Positions 7,018 through 47,190 of a stretch of DNA of 64,000 nucleotides are shown in pieces. Position 1 is the first letter of the stretch; every line of letters starts with the position of its first letter. The notes under the pieces were generated by a model. It made no database searches. It had not been told where the DNA came from and was given only the letters and a program-made list of their open reading frames with translations. Source of the DNA: Gammaproteobacteria bacterium (lineage in GTDB: Bacteria > Pseudomonadota > Gammaproteobacteria > Arenicellales > Poriferihabitantaceae); the NCBI GenBank assembly GCA_009842505.1, contig VYFG01000018.1, positions 1 to 64,000 on the forward strand, in the 5' to 3' direction. Position numbers and translations under genes: made by a program.

Positions 7018-7245
7018 TCAGGCCGCGTCCTTTTGCTTTTGTTCGAAGCGGTGTCCTTCGGGCTGCTGTTCGAGCATGTGGGGCTCCGCCGGTTCGATCT
7101 CCACCGCCAGCCAGTGGAAACAGGGTTCGCTCACCCTGTACGGCCTCAGCGGCGCCGTGATCAACTCCGGATGCTCATACAGCATTTCGTCGGTCACCGG
7201 GATGAACACCTTGTGCGAAGGCAATGCTTCGGAAACGAGAGGCAT
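7018..7245 (-). CDS. small conserved-looking hypothetical protein
   Basis: A 75-residue protein with a patterned central region (KVFIPVTDEMLYEHPEL, then PCFHWLAVEIE) and an acidic/basic hydrophilic tail; no signal peptide or membrane segment. I do not recognise a domain. Coding character, a normal ATG and its placement in an otherwise empty gap argue that it is real. The ribosome binding site is weak (GGTAG about 11 bases upstream). Convergent with uvrD. Confidence 0.5.
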   Translation of the reverse strand: MPLVSEALPSHKVFIPVTDEMLYEHPELITAPLRPYRVSEPCFHWLAVEIEPAEPHMLEQQPEGHRFEQKQKDAA

Positions 7246-10560: not shown

Positions 10561-10608
10561 ATCCGGCAGCCCCACGACGCAGACGGGCCGGAATGCCCGT
10601 TCATGGCA

Positions 10609-13959: not shown

Positions 13960-13962
13960 GAT

Positions 13963-14841: not shown

Positions 14842-14893
14842 GCGCCCCCCTCAGCAATGCCGCCCGGCGGCGCCTGGCCAACCGGACGCATTC

Positions 14894-15850: not shown

Positions 15851-15920
15851 AACCAAATGTGATGCTTATATTGTTTGAAAACAGCAATTTATCGATTCCG
15901 GTCTAGTATAAGAGACCTGC

Positions 15921-15949
15921 TTGTGAAAGACACCTTTCCGGTTTATGCT
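15921..15949 (+). promoter_or_regulatory. putative promoter of the deacylase operon
   Basis: TTGTGA and TATGCT are separated by 17 bp. The -10 ends 6 bases before the ATG at 15956, which would give a leaderless or nearly leaderless transcript; consistent with this, no Shine-Dalgarno sequence precedes that ATG. Confidence 0.4.
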
Positions 15950-15955
15950 GGCACT

Positions 15956-16978: not shown

Positions 16979-18066
16979 ACCTGTCCCCCGCCAAGCGGCG
17001 TATCGTCGATATCCGGGCCCACATGACAGCGTTGCCCGAGGGGTTTTCCAGCGACACCATCAAGCTGTGTTCCAATGAAAGCTCTTTCGGTCCGGCCCCG
17101 GGCGTCATCGATGCCGCGGAAAAGGCGGTGCGCCGGATGCAGTTCTACGCCGAGCAGGGAACCGGGGAGTTGCAGGAGGCCATTGCGCAGCGGGAGGGCA
17201 TCGATCCCTACCGCATCGTTTGCGGGCCGGGTTCCGACGAATTGCTGTCCCGCCTGTGCCGCGCCTATCTCGGTGTCGGAGATGAGCTGCTGTACACCAT
17301 CAACGGCTACGCCAAGTTCAGCAACTACGGGCTCGCCAACGATGCCATGCCGGTTCGCGTGCCGGATGCGGATTTCAGGGTCAGTGTCGACAACCTGCTG
17401 GCAAGCGTGACGCCGAAAACCCGGATGGTGATGGTGGCCAATCCGGACAACCCGACGGGCTCCTGGCTGCCGCACAGTGAAATCGTCCGGTTGCATGCGG
17501 GCCTGCCGGAGTCCGTACTCCTGGTGTTGGACTCCGCCTATGCGGAATACGTGGACGACCCAAACTATGCAGTGCCATCCGCCCTGGTTGAAGGTCACGA
17601 CAACGTCGTCATGACGCGGACGTTCTCGAAAATCCATGGCCTGGCCGGCCTTCGCCTCGGCTGGCTGTACGGTCCTGCGGAAATTGTGGAAATCCTGCGG
17701 CGTATCGGCCCCACCTTTCCCATCAGCAACATCGCCCTGGATTGCGGAATCGCGGCCATGGACAGCGGGGACTATCCGGAGGAAATCAAGCAGCTCAACC
17801 GGTCGTTGAGGAACGAACTGCGGGACGGCATGCGCTCCCTGGGCCTCTACCCGTTGGAAAGCCAGACGAATTTCGTGCTGATCGGTTTTCCCGAAGACGG
17901 TCCCGATGCATTGAAGATCACTGAGGCGCTGTGGGAGCGGAAAATCATGGTCAGGTGCTTTCCGAACCCGATTCTGATCAATTATATCCGCGTCTCCATC
18001 GGTACCGAGGAGGAGATGGCGCTGTTCCATTCCGCCATGCGTACCTGCCTGGATGAATTATGCTGA
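16975..18066 (+). CDS. HisC-like PLP-dependent aminotransferase (fold type I)
   Basis: A 363-residue class I/II aminotransferase resembling histidinol-phosphate aminotransferase. Features: LCSNESSFGP at 31-40, GPGSDELL for PLP phosphate contact, NPDNPTG around 160, LDSAYAEY, and TFSKIHGLAGLRLGW with the Schiff-base lysine near 218. It sits between a deacylase and a two-subunit 2-oxoacid decarboxylase, joined by 4 and 7 bp overlaps, so it most likely converts the freed amino acid into the 2-oxo acid. No other his genes are here, so a histidine-biosynthetic role is unlikely. Confidence 0.83.
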   Translation: MNLSPAKRRIVDIRAHMTALPEGFSSDTIKLCSNESSFGPAPGVIDAAEKAVRRMQFYAEQGTGELQEAIAQREGIDPYRIVCGPGSDELLSRLCRAYLGVGDELLYTINGYAKFSNYGLANDAMPVRVPDADFRVSVDNLLASVTPKTRMVMVANPDNPTGSWLPHSEIVRLHAGLPESVLLVLDSAYAEYVDDPNYAVPSALVEGHDNVVMTRTFSKIHGLAGLRLGWLYGPAEIVEILRRIGPTFPISNIALDCGIAAMDSGDYPEEIKQLNRSLRNELRDGMRSLGLYPLESQTNFVLIGFPEDGPDALKITEALWERKIMVRCFPNPILINYIRVSIGTEEEMALFHSAMRTCLDELC

Positions 18067-18560
18067 GCGGGAAGTGCATCATCGACGCGCTGAAAACGTC
18101 CGGTATCCGTTACATACTGTCCGTACCGGACATCGTCACCAGCGACGGCCTGCTCTGGCCTGTCAGCAGGGATCCGGATTTCAGGCTGGTGCGGGTGTGC
18201 AAGGAGGACGAGGCGGTATCCATCGCCGCGGGGCTGTCGTTCGGCGGCGTCCGGTCCCTGGTGCTGATACAGAACACGGGATTCATGGATTCCATCAATG
18301 CCATCCGGGTCATGGCGGTGGAGTACAACCTGCCGATCTGCCTGATGGTGGGATTGCAGGGCCTGGAGCCAGGCCGCCTTCCCGCAGAATCCGGAAAATA
18401 CAGTGTTCGCATCTGCCCGCCCCTGGCGGATGTCATGGAACTCGGGAACCACCTCATCCGGAACGACGATGACATCCCCGTGATCTCGGGGGAGATCGAA
18501 CGCGCCTATGCCGCGCCCGGGCCGGTTGCCTTCTTTCTCGGGAGGTCCCCCGCAGCATGA
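18060..18560 (+). CDS. ThDP-dependent decarboxylase, pyrimidine-binding subunit (sulfopyruvate decarboxylase alpha-like)
   Basis: A 166-residue stand-alone PYR domain. The catalytic glutamate is in KEDEAVSIAAGL (Glu51), followed by the VLIQNTGF segment seen in ComD and in the N-terminus of phosphonopyruvate decarboxylases. With the next gene it would form a heteromeric decarboxylase acting on a 2-oxo acid such as sulfopyruvate or phosphonopyruvate. It overlaps both neighbours (7 and 4 bp), fitting stoichiometric expression of both subunits. Confidence 0.82.
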   Translation: MLSGKCIIDALKTSGIRYILSVPDIVTSDGLLWPVSRDPDFRLVRVCKEDEAVSIAAGLSFGGVRSLVLIQNTGFMDSINAIRVMAVEYNLPICLMVGLQGLEPGRLPAESGKYSVRICPPLADVMELGNHLIRNDDDIPVISGEIERAYAAPGPVAFFLGRSPAA

Positions 18561-19126
18561 TGAAGCGGGACGAATGCCTGCAGGTCCTCAGCCGGCACTA
18601 CACCGACCAGGTGGTGGTCCCGGCCTACCAGGCCGCGTTCGAATGGATGGTGATCTGTCCGTCGGACCTCACCTATCTCACCACCGGCGCCATGGGACAG
18701 GCGTCGTCCCATGCCCTGGGGCTGGCCCTGGCGCGGCCCGACAAGGCCGTATGGGTACTGGACGGCGACGGCAGCCTGTTGATGAATCTCGGCTCCCTGG
18801 TCACGATCGCCAGCGTGGCGCCGGAAAACTTTCACCACTTTCTCTGCCACAACGGCGTCTACGAGGCGAATGGCTCGCACCCGATTCCCGGACAGGACAT
18901 CGTGGATTTTCCCGGACTTGCCAGGTCCGCGGGATATCCCCACTGCCACCGTTTCGACGACCTGGACGACTTCCGTTCGCGGATCGGGGATGTGCTTGGC
19001 CTGGATGGACCGGTGTTCATCGAACTGATCGTGGAACAGGGCGCGGTCTATCCCCAGGATTATGTCCAGTTGCACAGCGCGGAGCGAAGAGCGCGCTTTC
19101 ACGCCGCATTCAATCCCCCGGCGTGA
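18557..19126 (+). CDS. ThDP-dependent decarboxylase, pyrophosphate-binding subunit (sulfopyruvate decarboxylase beta-like)
   Basis: A 189-residue ThDP C-terminal domain. The Mg/ThDP motif is GDG at 70-72 with the distal Asn99 (LDGDGSLLMN ... LCHNGVYE), and TTGAMGQASSHALGLA precedes it, as in ComE. It completes the active site with the preceding subunit. The product would be an aldehyde, which the convergent aldehyde dehydrogenase 18 bp downstream could oxidise. Classification as sulfopyruvate versus phosphonopyruvate or another 2-oxoacid decarboxylase is open. Confidence 0.83.
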   Translation: MMKRDECLQVLSRHYTDQVVVPAYQAAFEWMVICPSDLTYLTTGAMGQASSHALGLALARPDKAVWVLDGDGSLLMNLGSLVTIASVAPENFHHFLCHNGVYEANGSHPIPGQDIVDFPGLARSAGYPHCHRFDDLDDFRSRIGDVLGLDGPVFIELIVEQGAVYPQDYVQLHSAERRARFHAAFNPPA

Positions 19127-19144: not shown

Positions 19145-20617
19145 TCAGGCAAACGGGTTCGGCACCACTTCCGCGTTGTTGATCCAAACGCTTTTCACCT
19201 GCAGGAACTCCCGGATCATCTCCTGGCCGTTTTCCCGGCCGATACCGCTCAGCTTGTAGCCGCCTGCCGGTGACATCATGCTGACGGACCGGTAGGTATT
19301 GATATAGACGGTTCCGCATTTGAGGCTCGCCGCCATCCGGTGCGCCAGGCGGATGTTTTCCGTCCATACCCCCGCGGCCAGCCCGAAGGGGCTGTCATTG
19401 GCCATGGCCACCGCTTCGGCCTCATCGGTGAAGGTCATCATGCCGGCCACCGGCCCGAAGATTTCCTCCCTGGCGATGCGCATGTCCGGGCGGACATTGC
19501 GATAGACGGTGGGTTCGACGAACCAGCCCTCTTCGCAGCCCGGACGGGTGGCGCGATGCCCGCCCACGACCAGTTCCGCGCCTTCGGCCTTTGCAGAGTC
19601 GAGGAAGCCCAGGATGGTGTCGAACTGCATTTCATTAGCGATGGGGCCGATCCGGGTCGCCGGGTCGGATGGATCACCCATCCGGAGATCCGCCAGCGCG
19701 CCGACCAGCCTTTGTTCGAATTCCGGCGCGATCTCCTCCTGCACCAGGATGCGCGAGCCCGCCACGCAGGTCTGGCCGTTCGACAGGAACAGGCCGGACA
19801 GCACCCCGTTGACGGCATTGTCCAGGTTGGCGTCGGCAAACACGATCTGGGGCGACTTTCCGCCGAGCTCCAGGGTCACCGGTTTCAGCTGGTCTGCTGC
19901 CGTGCGATTGACCGCGCGACCGCCGTTCACCGAGCCGGTAAAGGTCACCTTGGCCACATCCGGATGGGAAACCAGGGGCTCCCCCGCGCCATCGGCGAAT
20001 CCCGTCACCACATTGACCACGCCCGGCGGGAATCCGGCCTGCTGCACGAGTTCCATGAACGCCAGCGTGGATGCGGATGCATGTTCGGAGGGCTTGACCA
20101 CCAGGGTGTTTCCCGCGGCCAGGGCGGGCGCGAGTTTCCACAGCATGAGCATGACCGGAGAATTCCAGGGCGTGATCGCGGCGACCACGCCCAGGGGCTC
20201 GTAGCGGGTGAAATTGAAGACATCCGGAATATCCAGCGGAATCACCGCGCCTTCGACCTTGTCGGCCAGCCCGCCATAGTAATACAGCCATTCCGGCAGG
20301 TAGCGGAACTGGGGCAATGCCTCGGCCAGTCGCTTGCCGTTGTCCCTGGCCTCGATCCGGGCGATCTCCTCCCCCTGATCCCGCAGCAGGTCGCCCAGGC
20401 GCCGCAGCAGCCTCCCCCGGGTGGTGGCGTTCGTGCGCGCCCAGTCTCCCTGCTCGAAAGCATGCCTGGCCGCGGCTACCGCGGCCTCGACGTCCTCGGG
20501 GCCGCCATGGGGAATCCGGGCCCAGGGTCTGCCGGTGTATGGTTCGATGCTGTCAAACCACTTTCCGCCCGCCGGGTCGCACCAGTCGCCGCCGATGAAC
20601 AGCCGGAATGTCTTCAT
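19145..20617 (-). CDS. aldehyde dehydrogenase (NAD(P)+-dependent)
   Basis: A 490-residue ALDH superfamily enzyme oxidising an aldehyde to its acid. Motifs: TPWNSPVMLMLWK (Asn in catalysis), FTGSVNGGRAV, the general base Glu in LELGGKSP, the nucleophile Cys in SNGQTCVAGSR, and EEIFGPV. Start overlaps the LysR stop by 4 bp, so regulator and dehydrogenase form one minus-strand transcript. It converges on the decarboxylase genes, consistent with removing their aldehyde product. Betaine-aldehyde and hydroxymuconic-semialdehyde dehydrogenases are related; the substrate cannot be assigned from sequence. Confidence 0.9.
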   Translation of the reverse strand: MKTFRLFIGGDWCDPAGGKWFDSIEPYTGRPWARIPHGGPEDVEAAVAAARHAFEQGDWARTNATTRGRLLRRLGDLLRDQGEEIARIEARDNGKRLAEALPQFRYLPEWLYYYGGLADKVEGAVIPLDIPDVFNFTRYEPLGVVAAITPWNSPVMLMLWKLAPALAAGNTLVVKPSEHASASTLAFMELVQQAGFPPGVVNVVTGFADGAGEPLVSHPDVAKVTFTGSVNGGRAVNRTAADQLKPVTLELGGKSPQIVFADANLDNAVNGVLSGLFLSNGQTCVAGSRILVQEEIAPEFEQRLVGALADLRMGDPSDPATRIGPIANEMQFDTILGFLDSAKAEGAELVVGGHRATRPGCEEGWFVEPTVYRNVRPDMRIAREEIFGPVAGMMTFTDEAEAVAMANDSPFGLAAGVWTENIRLAHRMAASLKCGTVYINTYRSVSMMSPAGGYKLSGIGRENGQEMIREFLQVKSVWINNAEVVPNPFA

Positions 20618-21611: not shown

Positions 21612-22955
21612 ATGTCCAGAGAAACCCGCTGGGTAGACCAGCCCTACCACGGATACCACCTCGCCGAACTCCCGGCAGAGGATGAGGAACTGACCCATGT
21701 GGAGCCCGGCACGCCGTGCGGTGAATACATGCGCCGGTTCTGGCATCCCGTCGCGATGACCGAGCGCATCGGCGAGCGGCCGGAAGTCATCCGCATCCTG
21801 GGGGAGGATCTGGTGATCTTCCGCACCCTGAAAGGCGAGATCGGCCTGCTGCACAAGCACTGCCTGCACCGCCGGATGTCCCTTGAGTTCGGCAAGATCG
21901 AGGAGGACGGCATCCGCTGCGCGTACCATGGCTGGAAATTCTCCGCCAACGGGCGCGTCCTGGACAAGCCCGGCGAACCCAACCCCGCCGGCATCCAGGA
22001 ACGCAACTGCATGGGCGCCTATCCGGTGGAGGAATACCACGGCCTGGTATTCGCCTACATGGGTCCACCGGAAGAGTACCCCGAATTCCCCTACCTGGAT
22101 TCCATGGAGATCGAGGGCCACGATCTCGTTCCCTATTCCATCCATTCTCCCTGCAACTGGCTGCAGGAAAGTGAAAACTCCATGGACCCGTTTCACAGCG
22201 TCTTCCTTCACGGGCGCATCAACGGCCCGCAATTTCCGGGGCTGGAGAACTTCGTCAACCTGCCCGTGGTGGTCTACCACAAGATCCCGGCGGGGTTCGT
22301 CTACAGCCATGCCAGGCGCGTGGACGACCTGGTCTGGATCCGCTTCCATGACCACCTGACACCCAACTTCGCCCAGAACGGCGGCATGTTCCAAAGCTAT
22401 TCCAAGCCCACCTTCTTTGGCCGTCCCAGCCTGTCGAAATGGGTCGTGCCTGTCGACAACACCAACAGCCGCAAGTTCGGCTGGCGGCATTTTGACGACA
22501 CCAGCGAAGTCCTGCGCCGGGGCGAGCGTGCGGAAGTCGGCTGGGAAAGCGTGGACTTCTACGGCCAGACAGCCCATCGCAGCCGCGATGAAATGCGGAG
22601 CAATCCGGGGGACTGGGAGGCATGGACCAGCCAGGGCCCCATCAATCTCCACGCCAGGGAGTACCTTGGCTTCACCGACAGGGGGGTCGCCATGCTGCGC
22701 AGCAAACTGCGCAAGGACATCCGGGCGGTGGCGGCCGGGGAGCTCGTGGAACGCCCCGAGGGCACACCGGAAAAGCCGGTGCACACCTACGGCGGCGACA
22801 CCGTGCTCCGCATCCCCCGGCAGCAGGAAGACGAAGGCACCTTTCTGGCGGACCTCCAGAAACAGGTGGCGGAGGTCTACTTTCGCGGCGACGGATATGA
22901 GGGCGGTGACCGGCTGGAATTCCTCAAACGGGAGCTTGCGCAGCTGTCCGGCTGA
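21612..22955 (+). CDS. Rieske non-heme iron oxygenase, alpha subunit (module A)
   Basis: A 447-residue oxygenase component. Rieske [2Fe-2S] ligands are Cys84, His86, Cys103 and His106. The mononuclear iron site begins with Asp192, His195 and His200 in SMDPFHSVFLHG. The opening LTHVEPGTPCGEYMRRFWHPV resembles phthalate-dioxygenase-type proteins. Members hydroxylate aromatic or heterocyclic rings or demethylate N- or O-methyl groups, using a separate reductase, and none is adjacent. It heads a plus-strand unit with a small protein and an amidase, next to a full amino-acid-type importer. It is paralogous to the oxygenases at 37370 and 59113. Confidence 0.92.
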   Translation: MSRETRWVDQPYHGYHLAELPAEDEELTHVEPGTPCGEYMRRFWHPVAMTERIGERPEVIRILGEDLVIFRTLKGEIGLLHKHCLHRRMSLEFGKIEEDGIRCAYHGWKFSANGRVLDKPGEPNPAGIQERNCMGAYPVEEYHGLVFAYMGPPEEYPEFPYLDSMEIEGHDLVPYSIHSPCNWLQESENSMDPFHSVFLHGRINGPQFPGLENFVNLPVVVYHKIPAGFVYSHARRVDDLVWIRFHDHLTPNFAQNGGMFQSYSKPTFFGRPSLSKWVVPVDNTNSRKFGWRHFDDTSEVLRRGERAEVGWESVDFYGQTAHRSRDEMRSNPGDWEAWTSQGPINLHAREYLGFTDRGVAMLRSKLRKDIRAVAAGELVERPEGTPEKPVHTYGGDTVLRIPRQQEDEGTFLADLQKQVAEVYFRGDGYEGGDRLEFLKRELAQLSG

Positions 22956-29045: not shown

Positions 29046-29513
29046 CTACTTGACGAGATCAAAGGATTCCAGGACAACCGTCAGATCGTCCCGCCATTCC
29101 CTTCCCCACACGCTGAGCTGGAGCTTGAAGTAATCCTCGTGAATACGTGACCAGTATTCCAGGCTGCCGTCGCCCTCCCCTTCCCGGGCGGCGAACGCGG
29201 CGTCCACCTCACGGAACGGACGCTCCTGGACCTTGACTATCTTCAGCACGCAGGCAGGGGTCATGTCTTCCCACAAGATGACCCAGTAATCCCCCTCCTT
29301 CCGCCTGGTGACGTGATTGATTTCGAAGTCCATGGCCAGATGCGCGGTGGCGCGCTTGGTCTCATCGATGGCAAGCTGGGTCACGTGGTCGCCATAGTCG
29401 GCGAATCGCGGATCACCGAACGTGCTGCAATGGTATTCCTCGGCCTCAATGCCGAACTTTCGTCTGGCTTCAGCCCAGTAGGCTTCCACTTCGGGGGTTT
29501 TCTCTCCAATCAT
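29046..29513 (-). CDS. ASCH domain-containing protein
   Basis: A 155-residue protein of the YhfF-like ASCH group (PUA-related fold). The N-terminus VEAYWAEARRKFG, central THLAMDFEIN-type region, and the pattern PACVLKIVKVQERPF..VDAAFAAREGEGDGSLEYW are typical. ASCH proteins bind RNA or nucleosides, and one member hydrolyses N4-acetylcytidine. It is the last gene of the ten-gene operon, 18 bp after the amidase, with a GGAG site 8 bases before ATG. Role in the operon unknown. Confidence 0.8.
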   Translation of the reverse strand: MIGEKTPEVEAYWAEARRKFGIEAEEYHCSTFGDPRFADYGDHVTQLAIDETKRATAHLAMDFEINHVTRRKEGDYWVILWEDMTPACVLKIVKVQERPFREVDAAFAAREGEGDGSLEYWSRIHEDYFKLQLSVWGREWRDDLTVVLESFDLVK

Positions 29514-29531: not shown

Positions 29532-30818
29532 TCAGTTCAGGTTCAGTGCGGCTTGAATCCACTGTGCATCCCGCAGCAGTGCATTGTCTTCGTCGAGTCT
29601 GCCGATCAGTTGTATGCCGAGCGGCAGACCGGCCGGCCCCCTGCCCGCCGGCAGGGTGACCGAGGGCACCTTGAGCAATGTCCACATGCGGCTGAAAATC
29701 GGGTTCCCCGTGGATCCAAGGCCCAGGGGGGCTTCGCCGGTTGCGCTCGGTGCCAGCAGGACATCGTGGCGGTCAAACAGCGTTGCCAGTTGATTCATCG
29801 CCTCGGCTGCCTGGCCCTTCAGGCCCCTGTAGGCGTGATGGGTCACCGCCCGGCCCGTCTCCATCAGCTCCCGAAACTGCGGACTCAGGAGGTCGGCGTG
29901 GGCGAGATATTCGTAGGCCCGGGCGCGGGCGGCCTCGAACGCCATGATGCCGTTGTGACAGTCCGCAAGATCGCCGAACCCTGGCGGCAGTTCCACCTCT
30001 TCTGTGGGCGTCAGGTCGGCCAGTGAATCGGCGGCCTTGGTCAGCAGGTTCCGTGTGGCATCGTCAGCCTGTTCCCAATGGGGTGTTTTCACGAAAGCGA
30101 CCCGGGGGCCATCGCCGTCCCCGCGCGGCTCGAGATCGGCCCGGTCCCCGCACAGGACGGACCGCATCAACGGGATATCCTCGATCTCCCTGCAGAAAAA
30201 CCCCAGGGTATCCAGCGACGGCGCCAAGCCGCAGATGCCCTGCAGGTCAAAACTGCCCCAGGAGGCTTTGTAGCCGATCACCCCGCAGTACGCCGCGGGG
30301 CGGGTCACCGAAGCGGCGGTCTGGGTGCCGAAGGCGAACGGCAGCATGCCATCCGCCACGGCCGCGGCGGAACCCATGGAAGAGCCGCCGGGCGTGTGTT
30401 CGGGATTGTGGGGGTTAACCGTGCGCCCGGGAGAGAAATAGGCGAACTCCGTGGTGACGGTCTTGCCGAAGAGATTGCCGCCCGCGGCGCGGCACAGGGC
30501 CACACAACTGGCGTCCCCGTGGGGCATGCGCCCCCGGTAGATCGGCGAGCCCCAGGCGGCGGTGTGTCCCCGCATGTCGATCACGTCCTTGACGCCGATC
30601 GGAGCACCCCGGAGCGGTCCGGCGTCCGGCATGCCGTCCAGCCGCCGTGCGGACTCCAGCACTTCCTCTTCGTCGAAGCTCTCGAAGGCGCCCACCGTGG
30701 ATTCCCGGGCCCGGATCCGCGAGACAAACACTTCGGCAACTTCGGCACAGGAAGCCCGCCCATCCCGGATATGCCGCACGATGCGGTTGAGGCCGAGCTG
30801 ATTGAGTTCACCGGTCAT
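29532..30818 (-). CDS. amidase (amidase signature family)
   Basis: A 428-residue amide hydrolase. Triad: Lys77 (PIGVKD), cis-Ser146 (GGSSMGSAAAV), nucleophile Ser170 (GTQTAASVTRPAA). The GTQT variant of the second motif differs from the GSDAGGS form of the other amidase at 23163, so the two are from different subgroups and not a local duplication. Placed 28 bp after the DUF1116 gene in the Rieske/importer operon. It probably releases ammonia or an amine from a pathway intermediate. Confidence 0.9.
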   Translation of the reverse strand: MTGELNQLGLNRIVRHIRDGRASCAEVAEVFVSRIRARESTVGAFESFDEEEVLESARRLDGMPDAGPLRGAPIGVKDVIDMRGHTAAWGSPIYRGRMPHGDASCVALCRAAGGNLFGKTVTTEFAYFSPGRTVNPHNPEHTPGGSSMGSAAAVADGMLPFAFGTQTAASVTRPAAYCGVIGYKASWGSFDLQGICGLAPSLDTLGFFCREIEDIPLMRSVLCGDRADLEPRGDGDGPRVAFVKTPHWEQADDATRNLLTKAADSLADLTPTEEVELPPGFGDLADCHNGIMAFEAARARAYEYLAHADLLSPQFRELMETGRAVTHHAYRGLKGQAAEAMNQLATLFDRHDVLLAPSATGEAPLGLGSTGNPIFSRMWTLLKVPSVTLPAGRGPAGLPLGIQLIGRLDEDNALLRDAQWIQAALNLN

Positions 30819-30846: not shown

Positions 30847-32046
30847 TCAGGCAGGCAACGCATCCACTGCCTGTTCGAACAATGTCATGGGCTGCCTGAA
30901 TATACCGCCTCCCAGCCGCCCGAGTTCACCCTGGATATCGAGAATGCCCAGGCTGACCACCGGGCACTGGCCGGATTCGACGACGTCGCGGGCGCACAGC
31001 CCCACCCGCAGTCCGAGTTCGCCGAATCCGGGGTGTACGGCGCCAAGCAGGATGGCGGGGAGTGCCAGGCCGTTCTGCGGCAGGTAGGCGCCGAGGCCGG
31101 CCTTCTGGGCGGGTGCATAGTTCATGGCCATGGCGCCGAGCCCCAGCGCGTCCACTACCGCGCTGTCACCGATGGCGCCCAGTTTGCGGCTTGCCGGAAC
31201 ATCGACATCCAGCTTTCCCTCGGGCGGCGCGGCAGGTGCGGTAAACCAGCGCCCGGCAAGACCGGACACCTGGATGCCCGTCTCAAGGCCATTGGCGCCG
31301 GCAGCGGTCACCAGGCTGCTGCCCGCCACGCCATCAGCGCATCGGAACATGCACTTCACCGCGGCCATCCACAGGTTGAGAAAAAAGCTGGGACCCTGCT
31401 GAAGGAACTCGCGCGCCTTCTGGTCCAAGCGGTCGCCGCCCATGCCCGTGGTCATCCATTCGGTCAGCAGCCGGGTAGCCTCGATGGTGCGCCCGTGGCA
31501 GTCGTCTCCCAGCTCAAGGGATTGCCGGGCGATATCGACCAGGTTCAGGGGCGTGCCGACAGTGCCGGCCAGTTGTTCCGCGAACGGCCCGTTCAGCCAG
31601 CGCAGGTGCGCCAGGACCGCGTCATTGCAAAGTCCGAGGCGCATGGCCGGACCGTTCCCGCCATTGATGGGCGCCCATGCCCGGACATCGGGCCGGCTGG
31701 CGTCCCGGACGGCATGCAGGGGCATGTCCGCGGAAACCACCGAGGCCAGCGGCGTCGCCACGCCATGGTCCTGGGCGGGGGCAAGCCGGATTTCCCCCTT
31801 GAGTATCCGCTCGCGGGCCTCCTCGAAATCCGCCGCCAGTCCCTGGAAGACCGCGGCCACCCGGGCGGAATTCATGATCGGCGCGGTGATGTCCCCCGGT
31901 GAAGCGAACGCGGGCCCGGCATGGAGCAGCGTCGAGCCTTCGCAGCCCGCAGCTTCGCCGGCGGTGGTCATGCCGAACCATTCGGGCGAGGCGGAGGTCA
32001 GGCGTGCAATCGCGGCACTGTCCGCTTCATTGAGCATCCCGGTCAT
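30847..32046 (-). CDS. DUF1116 family protein (AllG/YlbE-like)
   Basis: A 399-residue protein. The run of segments WAPINGGNGPAMRLGLCNDAVL, ANGLETGIQVSG and GLGAMAMNYAP identifies DUF1116 by memory. In enterobacteria the DUF1116 protein AllG works with FdrA (AllF) and AllH as oxamate carbamoyltransferase in anaerobic allantoin use. Neither partner is seen here. The ATG at 32046 overlaps the upstream stop by 4 bp and is preferred to a GTG 21 bases earlier. A carbamoyl-transfer or related C-N reaction on a product of this operon is plausible but unproven. Confidence 0.75.
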   Translation of the reverse strand: MTGMLNEADSAAIARLTSASPEWFGMTTAGEAAGCEGSTLLHAGPAFASPGDITAPIMNSARVAAVFQGLAADFEEARERILKGEIRLAPAQDHGVATPLASVVSADMPLHAVRDASRPDVRAWAPINGGNGPAMRLGLCNDAVLAHLRWLNGPFAEQLAGTVGTPLNLVDIARQSLELGDDCHGRTIEATRLLTEWMTTGMGGDRLDQKAREFLQQGPSFFLNLWMAAVKCMFRCADGVAGSSLVTAAGANGLETGIQVSGLAGRWFTAPAAPPEGKLDVDVPASRKLGAIGDSAVVDALGLGAMAMNYAPAQKAGLGAYLPQNGLALPAILLGAVHPGFGELGLRVGLCARDVVESGQCPVVSLGILDIQGELGRLGGGIFRQPMTLFEQAVDALPA

Positions 32047-32666
32047 GCCGTCGCGGGGTCGATCCACGACTCCGAGAAATACAGGAAGGCACTGGTGGTT
32101 TCGATACCCGCCTGCACCCGCGGCCCCGGCTTTCCGGGCAGTATGCGCCCGTTAAGGCGGATCTCCGGCCGGCGGCATTCCACCAGCACGTTGTAGGCTT
32201 CGTGCTCCTTGCCGCCGGTCAGTTCCGCCGGCAATTCCAGTGCCACCGGCGCCCCCAGGTCATCCCACGTCAAGGTAATCTCCAGGCCATCCGCCCGGAC
32301 CTGCTCCCGGTAGCAGGAATTGGAATCCCCTTCGGGCCAGGCCTCGGTAATGGCCACGTGGGTCAGCGCGGAAAACGCTGGCGCGTCGGCGAACGCCGCC
32401 AGTTTGGCAATGAAGTTCAGCCGCAGGAACTCGGCCAGTTCCCGGTTGTCCGACAACAGCACATTCGCCGCATCCGGCAGACTGGCCGCGCTGCCGGGAT
32501 CTTCATACAGCATCAGGACCGTGCCTCTTCCCGCCGGCGACCAGGCGATGCGGAAGAACAGGGCCACCGCGGACAGCGGGCCGTCGGGATCCTCCTTCAG
32601 CAGGATACCGGGGTTCTCGCCGGTCCAGACGACGCGGCCGGGATGTATGGGTGATTCAAGGGGCAT
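32043..32666 (-). CDS. protein of unknown family, twin 2
   Basis: A 207-residue soluble protein, no signal peptide or membrane helix, 15 bp after its paralogue. Shared with the neighbour: NPGI-LK-DP near residues 18-27, SP-GRG, SAA--PDA-N, DN--L, YRE---ADG, and a C-terminal ST-FL--SE-W. It contains few cysteines and no recognisable catalytic or cofactor motif. It is translationally coupled to the DUF1116 gene. I cannot assign a family or function; a heterodimer with twin 1 is a reasonable guess. Confidence 0.75.
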   Translation of the reverse strand: MPLESPIHPGRVVWTGENPGILLKEDPDGPLSAVALFFRIAWSPAGRGTVLMLYEDPGSAASLPDAANVLLSDNRELAEFLRLNFIAKLAAFADAPAFSALTHVAITEAWPEGDSNSCYREQVRADGLEITLTWDDLGAPVALELPAELTGGKEHEAYNVLVECRRPEIRLNGRILPGKPGPRVQAGIETTSAFLYFSESWIDPATA

Positions 32667-32681
32667 GGCAATAACCTGCGG

Positions 32682-33302
32682 TCAGGAGCGTGGCCTGACC
32701 CAGGTTTCGGAGACCGCGAGAAACGCCGTGCTCATGGTCTGTCCGAAAAACAGGCGGTCAGTGACCCTGCCATCAAAGGATACGCCGTTGACGGAGATGG
32801 ATGCGTCCCCGGCCTCGAAGAATACGCTGTACATGTCATGTGCCCCGGTGGCGCAGTCCTTCGGCGTCACCTCCACGGCAAACGGCTCGCCCAGCCGGCG
32901 CCATTCCAGGCAGCATTCGACCCCGTCGGCGGACATCAGCTCGCGGTATACCGACTTCATGTCGCCTTCACAGCGCCTGCTCTTCATGGGCAACCTACTC
33001 ATGCCGTCGATGCCCGCCCTTCCCCTGAACGTGGGGAAGTACCGGATGAAATCATCCAGCAGGTAGTCCGTCAACGCGTCATTGTCCGTGATGCACAGGT
33101 TATTGGCATCCGGAAACCCGGCGGCGCTGTCCGGCTGTTCCAGCAGCAGCATGATATGGCCGCGGCCATGGGGCGAGAGCGTCACCCGGAAATACACCGC
33201 CAGCGACGACCAGTCCCCTTCGGGGTCCTGTTTGAGATAGATGCCCGGATTGTCGCCGCACCATTCCACGGTGCCGGGATTGACTGGAATTCTGTCTGTC
33301 AT
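32682..33302 (-). CDS. protein of unknown family, twin 1
   Basis: A 206-residue soluble protein paralogous along its whole length to the following gene. Conserved pairs include GTVEWCGDNPGIYLKQDPEG here versus RVVWTGENPGILLKEDPDG there, and STAFLAVSETW versus SAFLYFSESW. ATG at 33302 gives the same length as the twin, which decides the start over a 13-codon extension. It lies 49 bp after the importer ATPase. No domain recognised. Confidence 0.75.
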   Translation of the reverse strand: MTDRIPVNPGTVEWCGDNPGIYLKQDPEGDWSSLAVYFRVTLSPHGRGHIMLLLEQPDSAAGFPDANNLCITDNDALTDYLLDDFIRYFPTFRGRAGIDGMSRLPMKSRRCEGDMKSVYRELMSADGVECCLEWRRLGEPFAVEVTPKDCATGAHDMYSVFFEAGDASISVNGVSFDGRVTDRLFFGQTMSTAFLAVSETWVRPRS

Positions 33303-33351: not shown

Positions 33352-34437
33352 TTACTCCGTCAGCAGCGTGGATTCGCTCACCCGCCAGGCAAGCGTCACC
33401 TGCTCCCCGGGCTGGACATCGAGATTCCTCGGGTGGTCTTCCAGGGTCATGGTGCTGCCGTCCTCCATGGAAACCAAGATACTGACCAGGTTGCCAGCGA
33501 ACCGCCGTGTCGACACGGTTCCGCTGACGCGGTTCACGGTGCCGTCGGAAGCATCGGAATCACCGGAAGCGCCGGATATCAGGCGGATCGACTCCGGCCG
33601 GATTGCGATCATGACCGCCGAGCCCGCAGCCGCCTCACCCTGCGAGGCACAGCGGAATTCACCGATGTCCGTGCCGATGGTGACGACGCCGTCGCCGCGG
33701 CCGAGGAGCCGCCCGGGCAACGTGTTGACCTGGCCGACGAAGTTCGCCACATAACTGGTCTTTGGATGGTTGTAGATCTCCTCGGCGCTGCCCATCTGTT
33801 CGATCTCCCCCAGATTCATCACCACGATGGTGTCGGACATGTTCATCGCCTCGGTCTGGTCGTGGGTGACGTAGACGGTGGTTATACCGAGTTCCTGCTG
33901 GATCCGGCGAAGCTCCACCTGCATCGCTTCGCGCAACTTGAGGTCAAGCGCTCCCAGGGGTTCATCCATCAGCATCACCCTGGGCGGATAGGCCACTGCA
34001 CGGGCCACGGCGATCCGCTGCTGCTGCCCGCCGCTGACCTCGGAAGGGTACCGGTCGTGCACTTCCGGCAACTGGATCAGGTCCAGCAACTCGTCCACCC
34101 GCTGGCGGATCTTGTCCTTGGGGTATCCCCTTTCCTGCAGGCCAAAGCCGATGTTGTCGCTGATGGTGAGGTGGGGAAAAAGGGCGTAGTCCTGGAACAC
34201 CATGCCGATTTCGCGGTGCTGGGGCGCCACCCTGGTGACGTCCTCGTCGCCGAGCAGGATCGTGCCCGAGGTCGGTGTCAGGAACCCCGCGATCAGCCGC
34301 AGGGTAGTGGTTTTGCCACAACCCGAGGGACCAAGGAGGGTGAGGAATTCACCCTCCTTGACCTCGAGATCCAGCGACTTGAGGGCAGTGAAGTCCCCGA
34401 ATTTCTTGACAACCCGGGTAAGTAGAACGCGGGACAT
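33352..34437 (-). CDS. spermidine/putrescine-type ABC transporter ATP-binding protein
   Basis: A 361-residue PotA/CysA-group ATPase: Walker A GPSGCGKTT near 37-45, Q-loop VFQDYALFPHL, signature VSGGQQQRIAVARA, Walker B VMLMDEPLGALDLKLR, and a C-terminal TOBE domain (about 245-355) containing RPESIRLI. It energises the importer formed by the two permeases and binding protein upstream in the same operon. Confidence 0.95.
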   Translation of the reverse strand: MSRVLLTRVVKKFGDFTALKSLDLEVKEGEFLTLLGPSGCGKTTTLRLIAGFLTPTSGTILLGDEDVTRVAPQHREIGMVFQDYALFPHLTISDNIGFGLQERGYPKDKIRQRVDELLDLIQLPEVHDRYPSEVSGGQQQRIAVARAVAYPPRVMLMDEPLGALDLKLREAMQVELRRIQQELGITTVYVTHDQTEAMNMSDTIVVMNLGEIEQMGSAEEIYNHPKTSYVANFVGQVNTLPGRLLGRGDGVVTIGTDIGEFRCASQGEAAAGSAVMIAIRPESIRLISGASGDSDASDGTVNRVSGTVSTRRFAGNLVSILVSMEDGSTMTLEDHPRNLDVQPGEQVTLAWRVSESTLLTE

Positions 34438-34469: not shown

Positions 34470-35543
34470 CTATTGCGCCACGGAACGGTTCCACTGATCC
34501 GTCCAGTCCGCAATATCGGCCTTGGAGTAGTCGATCCGAAGCTGCTGCGAAATTTCCTCGGAAGAGGTCTGCAGCATTTCATCCAGTACCGGATCCTCGC
34601 TCAGCCTGCCGATGGCTTCCTTGTTTACCGGCACTACACCGCTCTTGGTGGCGAATTCGAACTGGAACCCGGCGTCCAGGTATTCATTGATGAACCAGTT
34701 GGCCGCGGCGGCGTTTTCGCTGCTTTTCATGATGCCCAGCCAGCCATGCTTGTGAACGCCAGTATGCTGGTCGTTGATGTACGGATGCACCGTGGTGACG
34801 TTGGAGCCGGCATTCTTGGCGCGCACGCACCAACCGGCATGGACGACCGCGGCATACACATCGCCACTTTGAAACTGCGTGACCACCTCGCCTCCCCGGG
34901 ACCAGAACTTCAGGGCATTCATGCTCTTCACCAGGTCAAGGCCGGGCTGGATGTTGGCTTCATCGCCGCCTCCGGCATGGGCGAACGCACCGAAATTCGC
35001 CAGCCCGCCGCCGGAAGTGATGTCGGGAATCGACAGCCTGCCTTCCAGCTTGGGATTGGCCAGATCGCTGTAGGTCTTCGGCGGTTCGATGCCGAGCTCG
35101 GCAAACTTGTCCTTGTTGTAGCAGATGGTCTCCTGGGTAAACCAGGATCCGATCGTGTCATCGCTCACCTGCCAGTCTTCCAGATGGGCCTTGTTGGGAA
35201 TCGCATCCAGGCTGAGGGGCTGAAGGAACTCGGCGCTGCGGAAATCCTGAATCTGCGCGTCCAGTATTTCCATGATGTCGAAGGGCGCCTTGCCCCTACC
35301 CGCGATCAGCTTGGCCAGATTCGCCTGGGGGCTGCCGGTGACGAATTCGATCGTGCCGCCCTCTGCCTCGAATTTGGGCACGATGACGTTGACTATGTTT
35401 TCCTTCCAGGAGCCTCCCCAGGTGCCCACCTTCAGCGTGACACCATCGAACTCGCCGGCCAGCGATGCGCCGGTGGCCAGAACTGAGCCGACACCCAGAG
35501 CCATGGCGACACTGGTTGCTATGAATGATTTACGGTACTTCAT
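34470..35543 (-). CDS. PotD-type periplasmic substrate-binding protein
   Basis: A 357-residue family 1 binding protein. Signal peptide MKYRKSFIATSVAMALGVGS with cleavage near SLAGEFDG (about residue 29). The mature part begins LKVGTWGGSWKENI and includes DIMEILDAQ and GSPQANLAKLIAG. ATG is preceded by GGAGG 5 bases upstream, overruling a 21-codon longer frame. Such proteins bind polyamines, opines, or quaternary ammonium and other basic compounds. The neighbouring Rieske oxygenase suggests a nitrogenous ring or methylated amine. Confidence 0.92.
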   Translation of the reverse strand: MKYRKSFIATSVAMALGVGSVLATGASLAGEFDGVTLKVGTWGGSWKENIVNVIVPKFEAEGGTIEFVTGSPQANLAKLIAGRGKAPFDIMEILDAQIQDFRSAEFLQPLSLDAIPNKAHLEDWQVSDDTIGSWFTQETICYNKDKFAELGIEPPKTYSDLANPKLEGRLSIPDITSGGGLANFGAFAHAGGGDEANIQPGLDLVKSMNALKFWSRGGEVVTQFQSGDVYAAVVHAGWCVRAKNAGSNVTTVHPYINDQHTGVHKHGWLGIMKSSENAAAANWFINEYLDAGFQFEFATKSGVVPVNKEAIGRLSEDPVLDEMLQTSSEEISQQLRIDYSKADIADWTDQWNRSVAQ

Positions 35544-35607: not shown

Positions 35608-36498
35608 TCATCGGCTTCCCGAACGCAGCAGGGCTTCCAGCCCCACCAGTTTCTGCATGCCCAGTAATACGATCAGGCAGAAGAAAATGACAAGAGAGGC
35701 GGACGCGAGGATGCTGGGATCAAAATCATTCTCGAGTCCGTAGAACAGTTCAACCGGGTAAGTGGTGAATCCCGGCGCAGTCAGAAAAATGGATATCGGC
35801 ACGTCGCCGAACGACACCATGAAGGAGTACAGCGCGCCGGCATAGACCCCGGGCATGATCACCGGCAGCGTCACCCGGCGGAATGTCCGCCAGCGCGAGG
35901 CCCCCAGGCTGAGCGCGGCTTCCTCGAGCCGGTTGTCGAAGCGTTGCAGGATGGCGGTCACGGTGCCGATGACATAGGGTGTGGCGACGAAAAAGTGCCC
36001 GAGATACAGGCCAAGGAACGTTCCCTGTGCATAGAGGCCGGTGGCGTCACCCACCAGGAAATAGAGCTGGAGAAAAGCGATGCCCGTGACGATGGCCGGT
36101 ATCTGCAGCGGGGCGCGGAACAACGCCGAGATCAGTGTTTTCAACGGCAGGTTGCTGCGAACGATGCCGAGGGCTGCGGGAATGCCCACGAGACAGGCGC
36201 CCAGGGTGGCGGCCCCTCCCAGCAGGAAGCTCAGCCCGAGAGCGTGGAACTGCGCCGCCGGAATCTTGAAATACCACTGAAAGGACGGGTCTTCTGGCGG
36301 GAATTTAATGGCGGTGTAGTACTCGCCGCCGTGCAGCGAAGCGCCGATCACCACGATCATCGGAGACAGCAGGAAGATGTAGGACAGGCTGCAATACAGC
36401 CAGTGAAACCACCTTCCCCAGGGCAGTCCCCGCTTCGGCAGTGGGCCGGAACGGGCACGGGGCTGGATCACGGCCATTTCCGAGCGCATTTCCATCAT
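35608..36498 (-). CDS. PotC-type ABC transporter permease
   Basis: A 296-residue permease with about six helices, the EAA loop EEAALSLGASRWRTFRRVTLPVIMPG and a C-terminal basic stub. The ATG overlaps the preceding permease stop (ATGA), which sets the start; the much longer in-frame extension is a shadow of that permease. Forms the channel with the adjacent gene. Confidence 0.93.
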   Translation of the reverse strand: MMEMRSEMAVIQPRARSGPLPKRGLPWGRWFHWLYCSLSYIFLLSPMIVVIGASLHGGEYYTAIKFPPEDPSFQWYFKIPAAQFHALGLSFLLGGAATLGACLVGIPAALGIVRSNLPLKTLISALFRAPLQIPAIVTGIAFLQLYFLVGDATGLYAQGTFLGLYLGHFFVATPYVIGTVTAILQRFDNRLEEAALSLGASRWRTFRRVTLPVIMPGVYAGALYSFMVSFGDVPISIFLTAPGFTTYPVELFYGLENDFDPSILASASLVIFFCLIVLLGMQKLVGLEALLRSGSR

Positions 36499-37349
36499 GC
36501 GATCACCAGCCGGGCCGCCTTCAGCCGCTTGAGCAGGTAAACGGACAGCAGATTGATCAGGATGACCGATACCAGCAGCACCGCCGCCAGCGTACCTGCC
36601 ATCGCGTACTTGATCTCCATCATGACCGTCCGCTGGATCAGTACCGGCAGGGTGAAGACCCTGCCACCACCAAGCAGCGCCGCCGATGTGAAGGCGCCCA
36701 TGCTCATGTTGAAGATCATCAGCGCACCGACGGTGATGCCCGGCAGGCTGAGCGGCAGCATGATCCGCCAATGCACCCGCCACCGGCTGGCGCCGTGAAT
36801 CTGCGCTGCGTCCTCGTAGGACCGGGGAATCGTCTGGATCACGCTGTAGAGCAGCAGCACCCCAAATCCGAGGGTGAAGTGCATCAGCCCGACCACCACG
36901 CCGACCTCGTTCCCGATGATGGTATAGGGCCGATCGATGAATCCGACCCACAGGAGAAACCTGTTCAGCCAGCCGTCGGCAGAAAAGATGATGATCAGGC
37001 CGAACACCTTGATCACGATGGTGACGAACGTCGCCACCACGACACCGGCCAGCAGGATCATCGCCCAGCGGGACCGCATCCGGGCAATCAGGTAGGCCAC
37101 AGGGAAGCCCAGCAGGATGGTGGACAGCGTCGCAAGCGCCGACGTCTTGATCGTGATCCAGAGCGTATTGAGGTAGAAGGTGTCGGAAAAGAACTTGAAG
37201 TAGTTGCCGAGGTTCATCGCTTCGGACAGGCGTCCCAATCCGAGATCCCGGTGGAAGCTGCCCTGCAGGAAAACATACTGGGAAGACACGATGAGCAGGA
37301 TCGTGATCAGAAATCCCGGTATCAGCAGTAATTCCCAGCGTACTTTCAT
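36495..37349 (-). CDS. PotB-type ABC transporter permease
   Basis: A 284-residue permease with six hydrophobic segments and the EAA-loop-like EDAAQIHGASRWRVHWRIMLPLSLPG. It follows the Rieske gene by 20 bp in the same transcript. Confidence 0.93.
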   Translation of the reverse strand: MKVRWELLLIPGFLITILLIVSSQYVFLQGSFHRDLGLGRLSEAMNLGNYFKFFSDTFYLNTLWITIKTSALATLSTILLGFPVAYLIARMRSRWAMILLAGVVVATFVTIVIKVFGLIIIFSADGWLNRFLLWVGFIDRPYTIIGNEVGVVVGLMHFTLGFGVLLLYSVIQTIPRSYEDAAQIHGASRWRVHWRIMLPLSLPGITVGALMIFNMSMGAFTSAALLGGGRVFTLPVLIQRTVMMEIKYAMAGTLAAVLLVSVILINLLSVYLLKRLKAARLVIA

Positions 37350-37369: not shown

Positions 37370-38722
37370 TTAACCGGTGAATCTCGGGTCCTGGCGGATT
37401 TTCTTCAGTTCCGTCTGGATGTAGTCAATCCGTTCCTTACCACTGTACCTGTCACCGTCGAACACGACAGCCATGACCGCATCAGTCACCTCCTTCATCA
37501 GCTGCTTGTCGTCCATGTCATCCTTGGGCGGTATGGGCAGCACCGTGTCCTGCACATGGGTCATCCATTCGTCTCCGACCCGGGTCAGCGGGGACGGGTC
37601 GCCGCCTTCCTGGACCGTGCGGATTCCCTTGCGAAGCTGTCGCCTGAGCTGGATCAGCCCCGCATCGGTCACGCCCAGGTTTTCCGCCGCGTGGGAATTG
37701 ATCAGGCCCTGGGACACCTGGGCTTCATAGTCATTGGGATGCCGCTGGCGATACTCATAACTCTCGACACCGGTCTGCCCTTCAAAGTCCACGCTCTGTT
37801 TGCCGCATTTCGCGCGGTCCCCGTGGATCCCTTCAGGGTCGATCCCCGGACCGAAGCTGCGCCAGGCAATGATCATGCAATGCCTGTCATCATGGGGAAT
37901 GGTCCACTTGGTGATGCTGGCCCGGACAAAGTACTTTTCGTCCTTGCCCTCTTCCCAGAAAGCGCCCACCTGGCTGAAGGACGGCAATACCGTTTCCTGG
38001 GAGCGCACCCAGATCATGTCGTCGATCCGGTACGTCAGCGTCGCCCAGATCTTCTCGTCCCGGCGATGGAACACCACTTCGGGCATCGTGCCCCAGGTGG
38101 ATCCGAAATGCACATCCGTTACCCGGGCATGAAGGAAGACGGTATGGTATGGGTCCATGGTGTTTTCACACACCTGCAGCCAGTTGCAGGGATAGTGAAT
38201 GCAGTACGGCACCAACTCCACATCCGGCAACATGGTCGTATCGAAGCGGGGAAAATCCGGTTTCTTGTCGGGGGGTCCCAAGTAGGCGAACAGCAGGCCA
38301 TGGTATTCGACGACCGGATAGGCACCATGCATGACCGAGTCCTTGCGCGTGCTGCCGGCAGGCTCCCCCGGTGTCTCCAGCACCGTCCCGTCTGTCCCGT
38401 AAAGCCATCCATGGTAGCAGCAACGCAAACCACAATCCTCAACCACGCCAAACTCGAGTGAGGCATTGCGATGGCTGCAATGCAGATGCAGCAAGCCATA
38501 TTCGCCGTCGCGGGTCTTGAATGCCACCAGGTCTTCCCCAAGAATCCGGATGCGGAGCGGAAGATCGGTAATCTCGCTGGTCATCACCACCGGGATCCAG
38601 AAACGACGGAAGTACTCCCCACACGGCGTACCCGGTCCGACATGGGTCAGTTCGGCGTCTTCTTCCGGCCGAATGGCTTTGTGATATCCGCCATAGGCTT
38701 CTATCGGTGTCATCCGATTCAT
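37370..38722 (-). CDS. Rieske non-heme iron oxygenase, alpha subunit (module B)
   Basis: A 450-residue oxygenase component. Rieske ligands Cys82, His84, Cys101, His104; iron-site residues Asp190, His193, His198 in TMDPYHTVFLHA. It shares LTHVGPGTPCGEYFRRFW and CCYHGW with the other two oxygenases in the window. A GGGAGAG site 5 bases before the ATG supports the start. It is the promoter-proximal gene of the ten-gene operon ending at 29046. No reductase in the operon. Ring hydroxylation or N-demethylation of the substrate brought in by the PotABCD-type importer is the expected first step. Confidence 0.92.
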   Translation of the reverse strand: MNRMTPIEAYGGYHKAIRPEEDAELTHVGPGTPCGEYFRRFWIPVVMTSEITDLPLRIRILGEDLVAFKTRDGEYGLLHLHCSHRNASLEFGVVEDCGLRCCYHGWLYGTDGTVLETPGEPAGSTRKDSVMHGAYPVVEYHGLLFAYLGPPDKKPDFPRFDTTMLPDVELVPYCIHYPCNWLQVCENTMDPYHTVFLHARVTDVHFGSTWGTMPEVVFHRRDEKIWATLTYRIDDMIWVRSQETVLPSFSQVGAFWEEGKDEKYFVRASITKWTIPHDDRHCMIIAWRSFGPGIDPEGIHGDRAKCGKQSVDFEGQTGVESYEYRQRHPNDYEAQVSQGLINSHAAENLGVTDAGLIQLRRQLRKGIRTVQEGGDPSPLTRVGDEWMTHVQDTVLPIPPKDDMDDKQLMKEVTDAVMAVVFDGDRYSGKERIDYIQTELKKIRQDPRFTG

Positions 38723-45671: not shown

Positions 45672-46919
45672 ATGCAGCGGTATTCCATCTTCAGCCTGGC
45701 CCGCAACGCCCTCAGCCACCACCGGAACTGGCAGCGCGCCTGGCGCAGCCCGGCGCCGAAGGCCCGTTACAATGCCGTCATCATCGGCGGCGGCGGACAT
45801 GGACTCGGCACCGCGCATTACCTTGCCACGGAGCACGGCCTGACCAACATCGCGGTACTGGAGAAAGGCTGGATCGGCGGCGGCAACACCGGCCGAAACA
45901 CCATGACCGTGCGATCGAATTTCCTTCGCGAGGCCAGCGTCCCGTTTCACGAGCATTCGCTGGATCTCTACCGGCAGCTGAGCCGCGAGCTCAATTTCAA
46001 CACCATGACCAACGAACGCGGGATGATCACGTTCATCCAGAGTTCCGCGGTGAACCGCATCGCCATGCAGATGGCCAACACGATGCATATCTACGGTGCG
46101 GATTACCGCGTCATCGGACTCGACGAGGTCAGGCGCCGGATCCCGATCTTCGAACCCGCCGAAGACATGCGCATGCCCATCCACGGCGCGGTGTACCAGC
46201 CCCGGGCCTCCATGGTGCGGCACGACGCCGTGGCCTGGGGGTTCGCCCGGTCCGCCGACGCCCGCGGGGCGGACATCATCCAGAACTGCGAGGTCACCGG
46301 CATCCTCAGGGAAGGCGGCCGGGTAACCGGCGTCGAAACCACCCGCGGCGTCATACATGCGGACAAGGTGGGCATGGCCGTGGCGGGCCACGGCAGCGTC
46401 GTCGCCGGCATGGCAGGCATCCGGCTGCCCATCGTCACCCAGCCGCTCCAGGCCTGGGTATCCGAACCCATCAAGCCGGTGCTGGACGAGATCGTGGTGA
46501 TCCGCAGCTATTTCGGCACCTACCTGATGCAATCCGACAAGGGGGAGATCGTGGTGGGCCAGGGCTGCGACCCCTATCCGTCCTATGCCCAGCGCGGAAC
46601 GTTTCCCATCATCGAGGACGCCACCACCGCGATGCTGGAGGTGTTCCCCAGTTTCCGCCGGCTGAAGCTGCTGCGCCACTGGGCCGGCATGCTGGACATG
46701 GTCTACGACGGCAGTCCGGTCATATCCCGCACCGACCTGAAGGGCTTTTACGTGGATCTTGCCGGGTCCGGCGGTTTCAAGACCACCCCGGCGGCGGCGC
46801 GGACCTTCGCCCACCTCATCGCCCGGGATGAACCCCATCCGCTGGCGGCGGCCTATGAACTGAACCGCTTCAGCAACGGGCAACTGATTCCGGAGGGCGG
46901 CGTATCCGCCAATCGATGA
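45672..46919 (+). CDS. soxB: heterotetrameric sarcosine oxidase, beta subunit
   Basis: A 415-residue FAD subunit where sarcosine is oxidised to glycine and formaldehyde. The dinucleotide motif GGGGHGLGTAHYL lies at 39-51, and the opening YSIFSLARNALSHHRNWQRAW is characteristic of SoxB. It leads soxBDAG, with a 1 bp gap to soxD. It gives the cell a way to use sarcosine formed from glycine betaine, creatine or other N-methyl compounds. Confidence 0.96.
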   Translation: MQRYSIFSLARNALSHHRNWQRAWRSPAPKARYNAVIIGGGGHGLGTAHYLATEHGLTNIAVLEKGWIGGGNTGRNTMTVRSNFLREASVPFHEHSLDLYRQLSRELNFNTMTNERGMITFIQSSAVNRIAMQMANTMHIYGADYRVIGLDEVRRRIPIFEPAEDMRMPIHGAVYQPRASMVRHDAVAWGFARSADARGADIIQNCEVTGILREGGRVTGVETTRGVIHADKVGMAVAGHGSVVAGMAGIRLPIVTQPLQAWVSEPIKPVLDEIVVIRSYFGTYLMQSDKGEIVVGQGCDPYPSYAQRGTFPIIEDATTAMLEVFPSFRRLKLLRHWAGMLDMVYDGSPVISRTDLKGFYVDLAGSGGFKTTPAAARTFAHLIARDEPHPLAAAYELNRFSNGQLIPEGGVSANR

Positions 46920-46920
46920 C

Positions 46921-47190
46921 ATGCTGCTGATTCCCTGCCCGTATTGCGGAGAGCGAAACGAACACGAATTCGTCTGTGGCGGCGATGCGGAGCGCATGCG
47001 GCCGCCGTCTCCCCAGGATCTGGACGATGCCGCCTGGCAGGACTACCTGTACAACAACACCAACGCCAAGGGCTGGGTCCGGGAGCGCTGGTGGCATGTC
47101 CTTGGCTGCGGACGCTGGTTCGAAATCGAGCGCCACACGGTGGCGCACGCCATCCGCCAGCCGGAAGGTTCCGGAGGTTCCGATGGCTGA
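46921..47190 (+). CDS. soxD: heterotetrameric sarcosine oxidase, delta subunit
   Basis: An 89-residue zinc-binding subunit. Ligands are in PCPYCGERNEHEFVC (two CxxC-like cysteines and a His) with a C-terminal Cys in VLGCGRWFEIER. Length and motif are standard for SoxD. The last 8 bases overlap the soxA start. Confidence 0.95.
   Translation: MLLIPCPYCGERNEHEFVCGGDAERMRPPSPQDLDDAAWQDYLYNNTNAKGWVRERWWHVLGCGRWFEIERHTVAHAIRQPEGSGGSDG

Follow-up and report, generated by a model that had tools for sequence, protein, structure and literature searches.

A tandem pair of paralogous proteins associated with a divergent class of AllG that lacks AllF and AllH

The pair and its neighbourhood

Two adjacent genes on the minus strand of the window, by which we mean the whole 64,000-nucleotide stretch of DNA analysed here, encode proteins A and B, which belong to one unnamed family and whose genes are separated by a gap of 15 bp. 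The pair and the genes around it are as follows.

15875 to 16978, plus strand: AstE/AspA hydrolase, part of the conserved wider set
16975 to 18066, plus strand: class I/II aminotransferase (HisC-like in homologues), part of the conserved wider set
18060 to 19126, plus strand: two-subunit TPP decarboxylase (alpha 18060-18560, beta 18557-19126), sulfopyruvate/phosphonopyruvate decarboxylase-like in homologues
19145 to 20617, minus strand: aldehyde dehydrogenase
21612 to 22955, plus strand: second Rieske oxygenase, 48% identical to that of the Ruegeria conchae cluster
29532 to 30818, minus strand: amidase-signature hydrolase (PF01425), a recurrent neighbour
30847 to 32046, minus strand: AllG-like protein (PF06545, formerly DUF1116) of the divergent class without AllF/AllH
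32043 to 32666, minus strand: protein B (207 aa), paralogue of A, complete open reading frame
32682 to 33302, minus strand: protein A (206 aa), the member retained in single-copy clusters, complete open reading frame
33352 to 34437, minus strand: PotA-like ABC importer ATPase, upstream of A
34470 to 35543, minus strand: ABC importer substrate-binding protein (SBP_bac_1/8)
35608 to 36540, minus strand: ABC importer permease, PotC-like, start approximate
36495 to 37349, minus strand: ABC importer permease, PotB-like
37370 to 38722, minus strand: Rieske oxygenase (450 aa) with a LigXa-like C-terminal part
45672 to 50137, plus strand: heterotetrameric sarcosine-oxidase-like genes (SoxB, D, A), recurrent neighbours

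An earlier sequence-only reading of this DNA had described tandem paralogues of 206 and 207 residues, similar end to end and wedged between an importer ATPase and a DUF1116 gene, and it was right on both counts. BLASTP aligned A and B without gaps over 201 residues (38% identity, 57% positives, E 3e-52), a similarity that is far above chance and runs from end to end. Upstream lies the PotA-like ATPase, and the downstream product matches the whole PF06545 profile at E 8e-60. The AllG open reading frame is longest from GTG 32067, and its start is most likely ATG 32046, which overlaps the stop codon of B as ATGA.

The same reading had recognised no domain in either protein, and library searches bore this out at the level of sequence. 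Neither A nor B had a match in Pfam (E <= 1), NCBIfam or PHROG (E <= 0.1), none of 38 homologues had a credible match in Pfam, and a PDB sequence search with the family profile returned nothing, the best E being 0.34. The claim holds at that level only, because the predicted fold, described below, is recognisable. A and B also contain no cofactor motif and no DNA-binding or signalling domain. Six residues (N18, R183, E199, W14, W134 and W201) are invariant across A, B and the A-only members, in AllG-linked and AllG-free clades, with the exception of one remote sequence (G247) that has no W14. Since these residues are invariant in B too, we concluded that B is not a degenerate copy. K24 is present in 56% of A sequences and 100% of B sequences, and no lysine column reaches 90% in A.

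The window carries the whole of the gene set that is conserved across loci, dispersed over 15.9 to 50.1 kb. Some other genes lie near it. An ASCH-domain protein is encoded directly downstream of the amidase gene (29046-29513) and was not seen in the other loci, and a homocysteine S-methyltransferase gene (PF02574, 14894-15856) has a similar-looking counterpart in locus L030 (8962-9930). A creatininase-family gene (PF02633, 61372-62172) lies near a third Rieske-like gene, judged by its N-terminus (59113-60456), and an amino-acid SBP-like gene, and these possibly form another nitrogen-compound catabolic set.

Association of A with a divergent class of AllG

Three genes, allF, allG and allH, encode the oxamate carbamoyltransferase (OXTCase) of Escherichia coli, formerly FdrA-YlbE-YlbF, which forms oxamate and carbamoyl phosphate from oxalurate and phosphate and in which AllG needs AllF and AllH as partners (PMC11326118). 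The AllG-like protein of the window is 29% identical to E. coli AllG. Full-length PF06545 matches in the window's order, Arenicellales, fell into three score classes (293-334, about 233-240 and 177-217 bits), and the genomes with the lowest class were precisely the 18, among 109 in all, that encode A (Fisher p 6e-21, with related genomes counted as independent). Likewise, in a sample of 296 Rhodobacteraceae genomes, again counted over related genomes with independence uncorrected, all 8 A-bearing genomes had an AllG of 170-210 bits, so that the pattern is repeated in two separate lineages.

The two types of AllG also differ in their neighbours. At all 14 loci with canonical AllG, that of the E. 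coli class, an AllF gene lay no more than 1.5 kb away, whereas AllF adjoined AllG in none of the A-type loci. Only weak partial matches to AllF (E 1e-8 or worse) were found in the window's own genome, and these lay on other contigs; in genome G024, AllF sits with a canonical AllG copy on C127. AllH (PF11392), in a search for which the E. coli control was positive, was missing from 10 of 11 genomes, namely the window's own (a draft, 96% complete) and 9 of 10 others. The sole AllH-positive genome was again G024, which also bears separate canonical AllG copies.

In the AllG tree, 24 A-linked and 16 AllF-linked rows lay on opposite sides of a branch with 100/100 support, and six partnerless rows were scattered over both sides. 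The AllG of G772 has a score similar to those of the A-type class but was rejected as a member of it, as the tree puts G772 in the AllF clade. Of 129 alignment columns with almost no variation in the AllF clade, A-type AllG retains 43, and the retained residues include H49, N135, R143, W157, D188, H191, N259, D301 and S302; at other columns, several of them fixed in the AllF clade, it shows clade-wide changes. Because A-type AllG has no AllF beside it and forms a separate 100/100 clade, we concluded that A and B hold the genomic place of AllF and AllH. The association of A/B with a divergent AllG class lacking AllF and AllH is our main finding, and the DUF1116 gene, which had been taken as mere context, turns out to be specifically associated with the pair. 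What is new here is an unnamed protein family with a specific and phylogenetically clean link to that class, and the link suggests a function for it.

Some AllG genes (L087, L112, L113, L142 and L143) had no AllF or A gene in the surrounding 1.5 kb or so. Such partnerless genes include very divergent ones (95-104 bits), and they hint at further AllG architectures.

Distribution, duplication and conserved gene set

Both A and B are encoded in 12 of the 18 A-bearing genomes of the window's order and A alone in the other 6, which belong to one genus; B was seen only in A-encoding genomes. In the Rhodobacteraceae sample, the family was present in 8 of 296 genomes, 7 of which had A and B. Among 397 other genomes sampled sparsely from the phylum, one had a homologue (29% identity), and a species-wide scan gave 28 loci, including some from Alphaproteobacteria, one betaproteobacterium and Actinomycetota. 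A and B appear as hypothetical proteins in the annotation of plasmid NZ_CP081104.1 of Ruegeria conchae, where they lie between Rieske and DUF1116 genes, and a related arrangement occurs on a plasmid of Variovorax (Betaproteobacteria). Plasmid IV of Paracoccus aminovorans (L156) carries A alone (9992-10597), annotated as an “NAD-dependent dehydratase,” which is probably a propagated misannotation, as the family has no such domain.

Clusters with AllG and A but no B occur in Paracoccaceae, in Actinomycetota and in one family of the window's order. The A-like genes of Devosia, of relatives of Acetobacteraceae/Roseomonas and of a betaproteobacterium (L060-L065) stand apart from AllG. Four genomes, those of the Acetobacteraceae/Roseomonas relatives, have an A-like gene and no AllG at all, and Devosia has an A-like gene and a canonical AllG elsewhere in the genome. 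The family can therefore act without divergent AllG.

In the family tree, B forms one clade (91/91 support), and B keeps its place next to A in both Gamma- and Alphaproteobacteria. The single-copy genes of one family in the window's order nest within A. We concluded that there was one old duplication and that some lineages later lost B. The single copies of Paracoccaceae and Actinomycetota, most of which are also near AllG and an amidase, branch outside the A clade, and members of the Acetobacteraceae type stand apart in the tree.

Over 36 loci, not all of which are independent, A was present in 33, AllG in 32, B in 25, a Rieske oxygenase in 21, an amidase in 20, a HisC-like aminotransferase in 17, a two-subunit TPP decarboxylase in 16, an importer in 12-14, sarcosine oxidase in 13-14, AstE in 10 and an aldehyde dehydrogenase in 6; the carbamate kinase AllK was not found in the clusters. 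The order Rieske-A-B-AllG-amidase is contiguous in Rhodobacteraceae, with overlaps of 1-4 bp. In L038, L057, L059 and G752, A is separated from AllG by kilobases or lies on the other strand. The gene set would suit an aerobic route that degrades a nitrogen compound taken up by the cell, possibly an N-methylated one. The homarine operon (homABCDER) may be a lead to the identity of the cluster. The lumichrome pathway was not adopted; it shares the two-subunit TPP decarboxylase, hydrolases and a Rieske enzyme, but the accessible text of the source gives no family for LumI and does not mention AllG (PMC12746152). In an actinobacterial metagenome-assembled genome (L068), two FMN oxidoreductases (Oxidored_FMN, trimethylamine-dehydrogenase-like; 6151-8238 and 13467-15674) flank a second A homologue.

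The position of the Rieske gene in Rhodobacteraceae, directly upstream of A with a 4-bp overlap, would suit A and B as accessory subunits of the oxygenase, for example as a scaffold or an electron-transfer adaptor. However, A and B have no cofactor motif, importer genes separate the Rieske gene from A in the window, and the Paracoccaceae clusters pair a diverged Rieske (29% identity) that has its own reductase with A only, all of which makes such a role highly improbable. We think it least probable of all that A and B are noncatalytic barrels that bind the imported compound to store or sense it. The adjoining importer in the window and a predicted fold with conserved aromatic residues would be in keeping with this, but the importer is missing from most of the Rhodobacteraceae pair clusters, A and B have no domain for DNA binding or signalling, and such a role would not explain why the pair goes exclusively with one class of AllG.

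Predicted structure, proposed function and known systems

AlphaFold predicted A to be a beta-rich barrel with two short helices (pLDDT 95.6, pTM 0.91). A and B are in frame in the window, and the TGA of A was read through to give an artificial A-linker-B chain; this chain is a computational device, and we do not claim natural read-through. In its model (pLDDT 94.1, pTM 0.92) the relative placement of A and B is predicted with confidence. The sequence-only reading proposed that the two are subunits of one heteromer; this model, the single B clade beside A and the overlaps of 1-4 bp in Rhodobacteraceae support the proposal but fall short of proof. Pairs are not obligatory, however, and nor is the presence of AllG, as shown by the A-only clusters and by the A-like genes in AllG-free genomes.

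A Foldseek search of the PDB with A alone gave no match at E <= 0.001, whereas VIA-align matched it to acetoacetate decarboxylases (ADC) at Z 8-9 and matched A and B to CrtC/AttH-type barrels at Z 7-8, against less than 5.5 for unrelated folds. Phm7 and Fsa2 were rejected as identities of the A-B chain, the matches being too weak (Foldseek E under 1e-3 but TM under 0.2), and with hhalign the profiles of the family supported descent from neither ADC nor CrtC/AttH.

The fold bears on the main rival to a complex with AllG, which is that A (and B) acts in the pathway as an enzyme in its own right, a small ADC/AttH-like barrel (hydratase, isomerase or lyase) working on a neighbouring intermediate, which shares only a regulon with AllG and makes no contact with it. 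The nearest structures are ADC-superfamily enzymes and hydratases and pericyclases of the CrtC/AttH type (Z 7-9, with unrelated folds below 5.5), some genomes with A-like genes have no AllG, and the six invariant residues, all polar or aromatic, are common to AllG-linked and AllG-free clades. On the other hand, A is found in two lineages only where divergent AllG occurs, the A-associated AllG clade is the one without AllF/AllH, and the lack of an invariant lysine makes Schiff-base chemistry of the ADC type unlikely. We regard a separate enzyme as credible but not as the better account.

We give about an even chance to the preferred reading, that A and B are paralogous subunits that work with divergent AllG in place of AllF/AllH, probably on a carbamoyl- or amide-bearing intermediate of an aerobic catabolic route. 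An AllG-A-B complex is suggested by the exclusive co-occurrence of A and divergent AllG within two lineages, the lack of AllF and AllH partners for this AllG, the split of the AllG tree by partner type, the three-gene make-up of the E. coli enzyme, the short overlaps (1-4 bp), the pTM of 0.92 and the retained AllG residues. It is weakened by the A-like genes without AllG and by the loci in which A and AllG lie apart (L038, L057, L059 and G752), and carbamoyl chemistry is weakened by the changes in divergent AllG at several residues fixed in the AllF clade. A and B would pack as a heterodimer, and A as a homodimer where B is missing, and as partners of the divergent AllG-like protein they would take the place of the AllF and AllH subunits of OXTCase. 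The imported nitrogen compound may be oxidised by the Rieske oxygenase and then opened or deamidated by the amidase, after which AllG-A-B would decarbamoylate or similarly cleave the intermediate. AllG would supply the retained chemistry, and A/B would hold the substrate or complete the site instead of AllF/AllH.

More tentatively, with the balance slightly against it, A/B may be an unrecognised subunit family that replaces AllF-AllH, giving a second AllG-type architecture for carbamoyl transfer (AllG with A2 or AB) in an undescribed aerobic degradation pathway of Gamma- and Alphaproteobacteria and Actinomycetota. A link between the AllG family and an enzyme dates only from 2024, when AllG was assigned to the three-subunit oxamate carbamoyltransferase of E. 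coli. If AllG does swap its partners for an unrelated barrel pair, then AllF-AllG-AllH would be just one architecture among several, and what AllG itself does would become testable. In addition, two “hypothetical proteins” can be placed in a candidate complex and a pathway context, with R. conchae as a named host, and the locus draws attention to a catabolic route, as yet uncharacterised, for a nitrogen compound that is possibly N-methylated.

Among known systems, the ADC superfamily (PF06314) gives the top structural match for each of the two proteins, with Z 8-9 across some 150 residues, but identity is 8-12%, the rmsd is about 4.6-5 A, the hhalign probability is 0.3, none of 38 A/B members matches PF06314, and the A/B family appears from its alignment to have no invariant lysine. 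The CrtC/AttH-like two-barrel proteins (PF07143), which include 25-phosphosteroid lyase and the Diels-Alderases Phm7 and Fsa2, resemble A and B as single barrels (Z 7-8) and the A-B pair in Foldseek (E 1e-4). They differ in that two barrels are fused in one chain whereas A and B have separate genes, the TM-score for the A-B pair is under 0.2, the hhalign probability is 2.9, and none of the 38 members matches PF07143. Compared with AllFGH, window-type loci have A/B in place of AllF and AllH, to which A and B have no detected sequence similarity; their AllG belongs to a separate clade (100/100), and their gene set is aerobic (Rieske oxygenases, sarcosine oxidase), with AllK not found in the clusters. 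Nevertheless, both systems lie in nitrogen-compound catabolic loci, and both have the AllG family (PF06545) in common over its full length, with many invariant residues retained.
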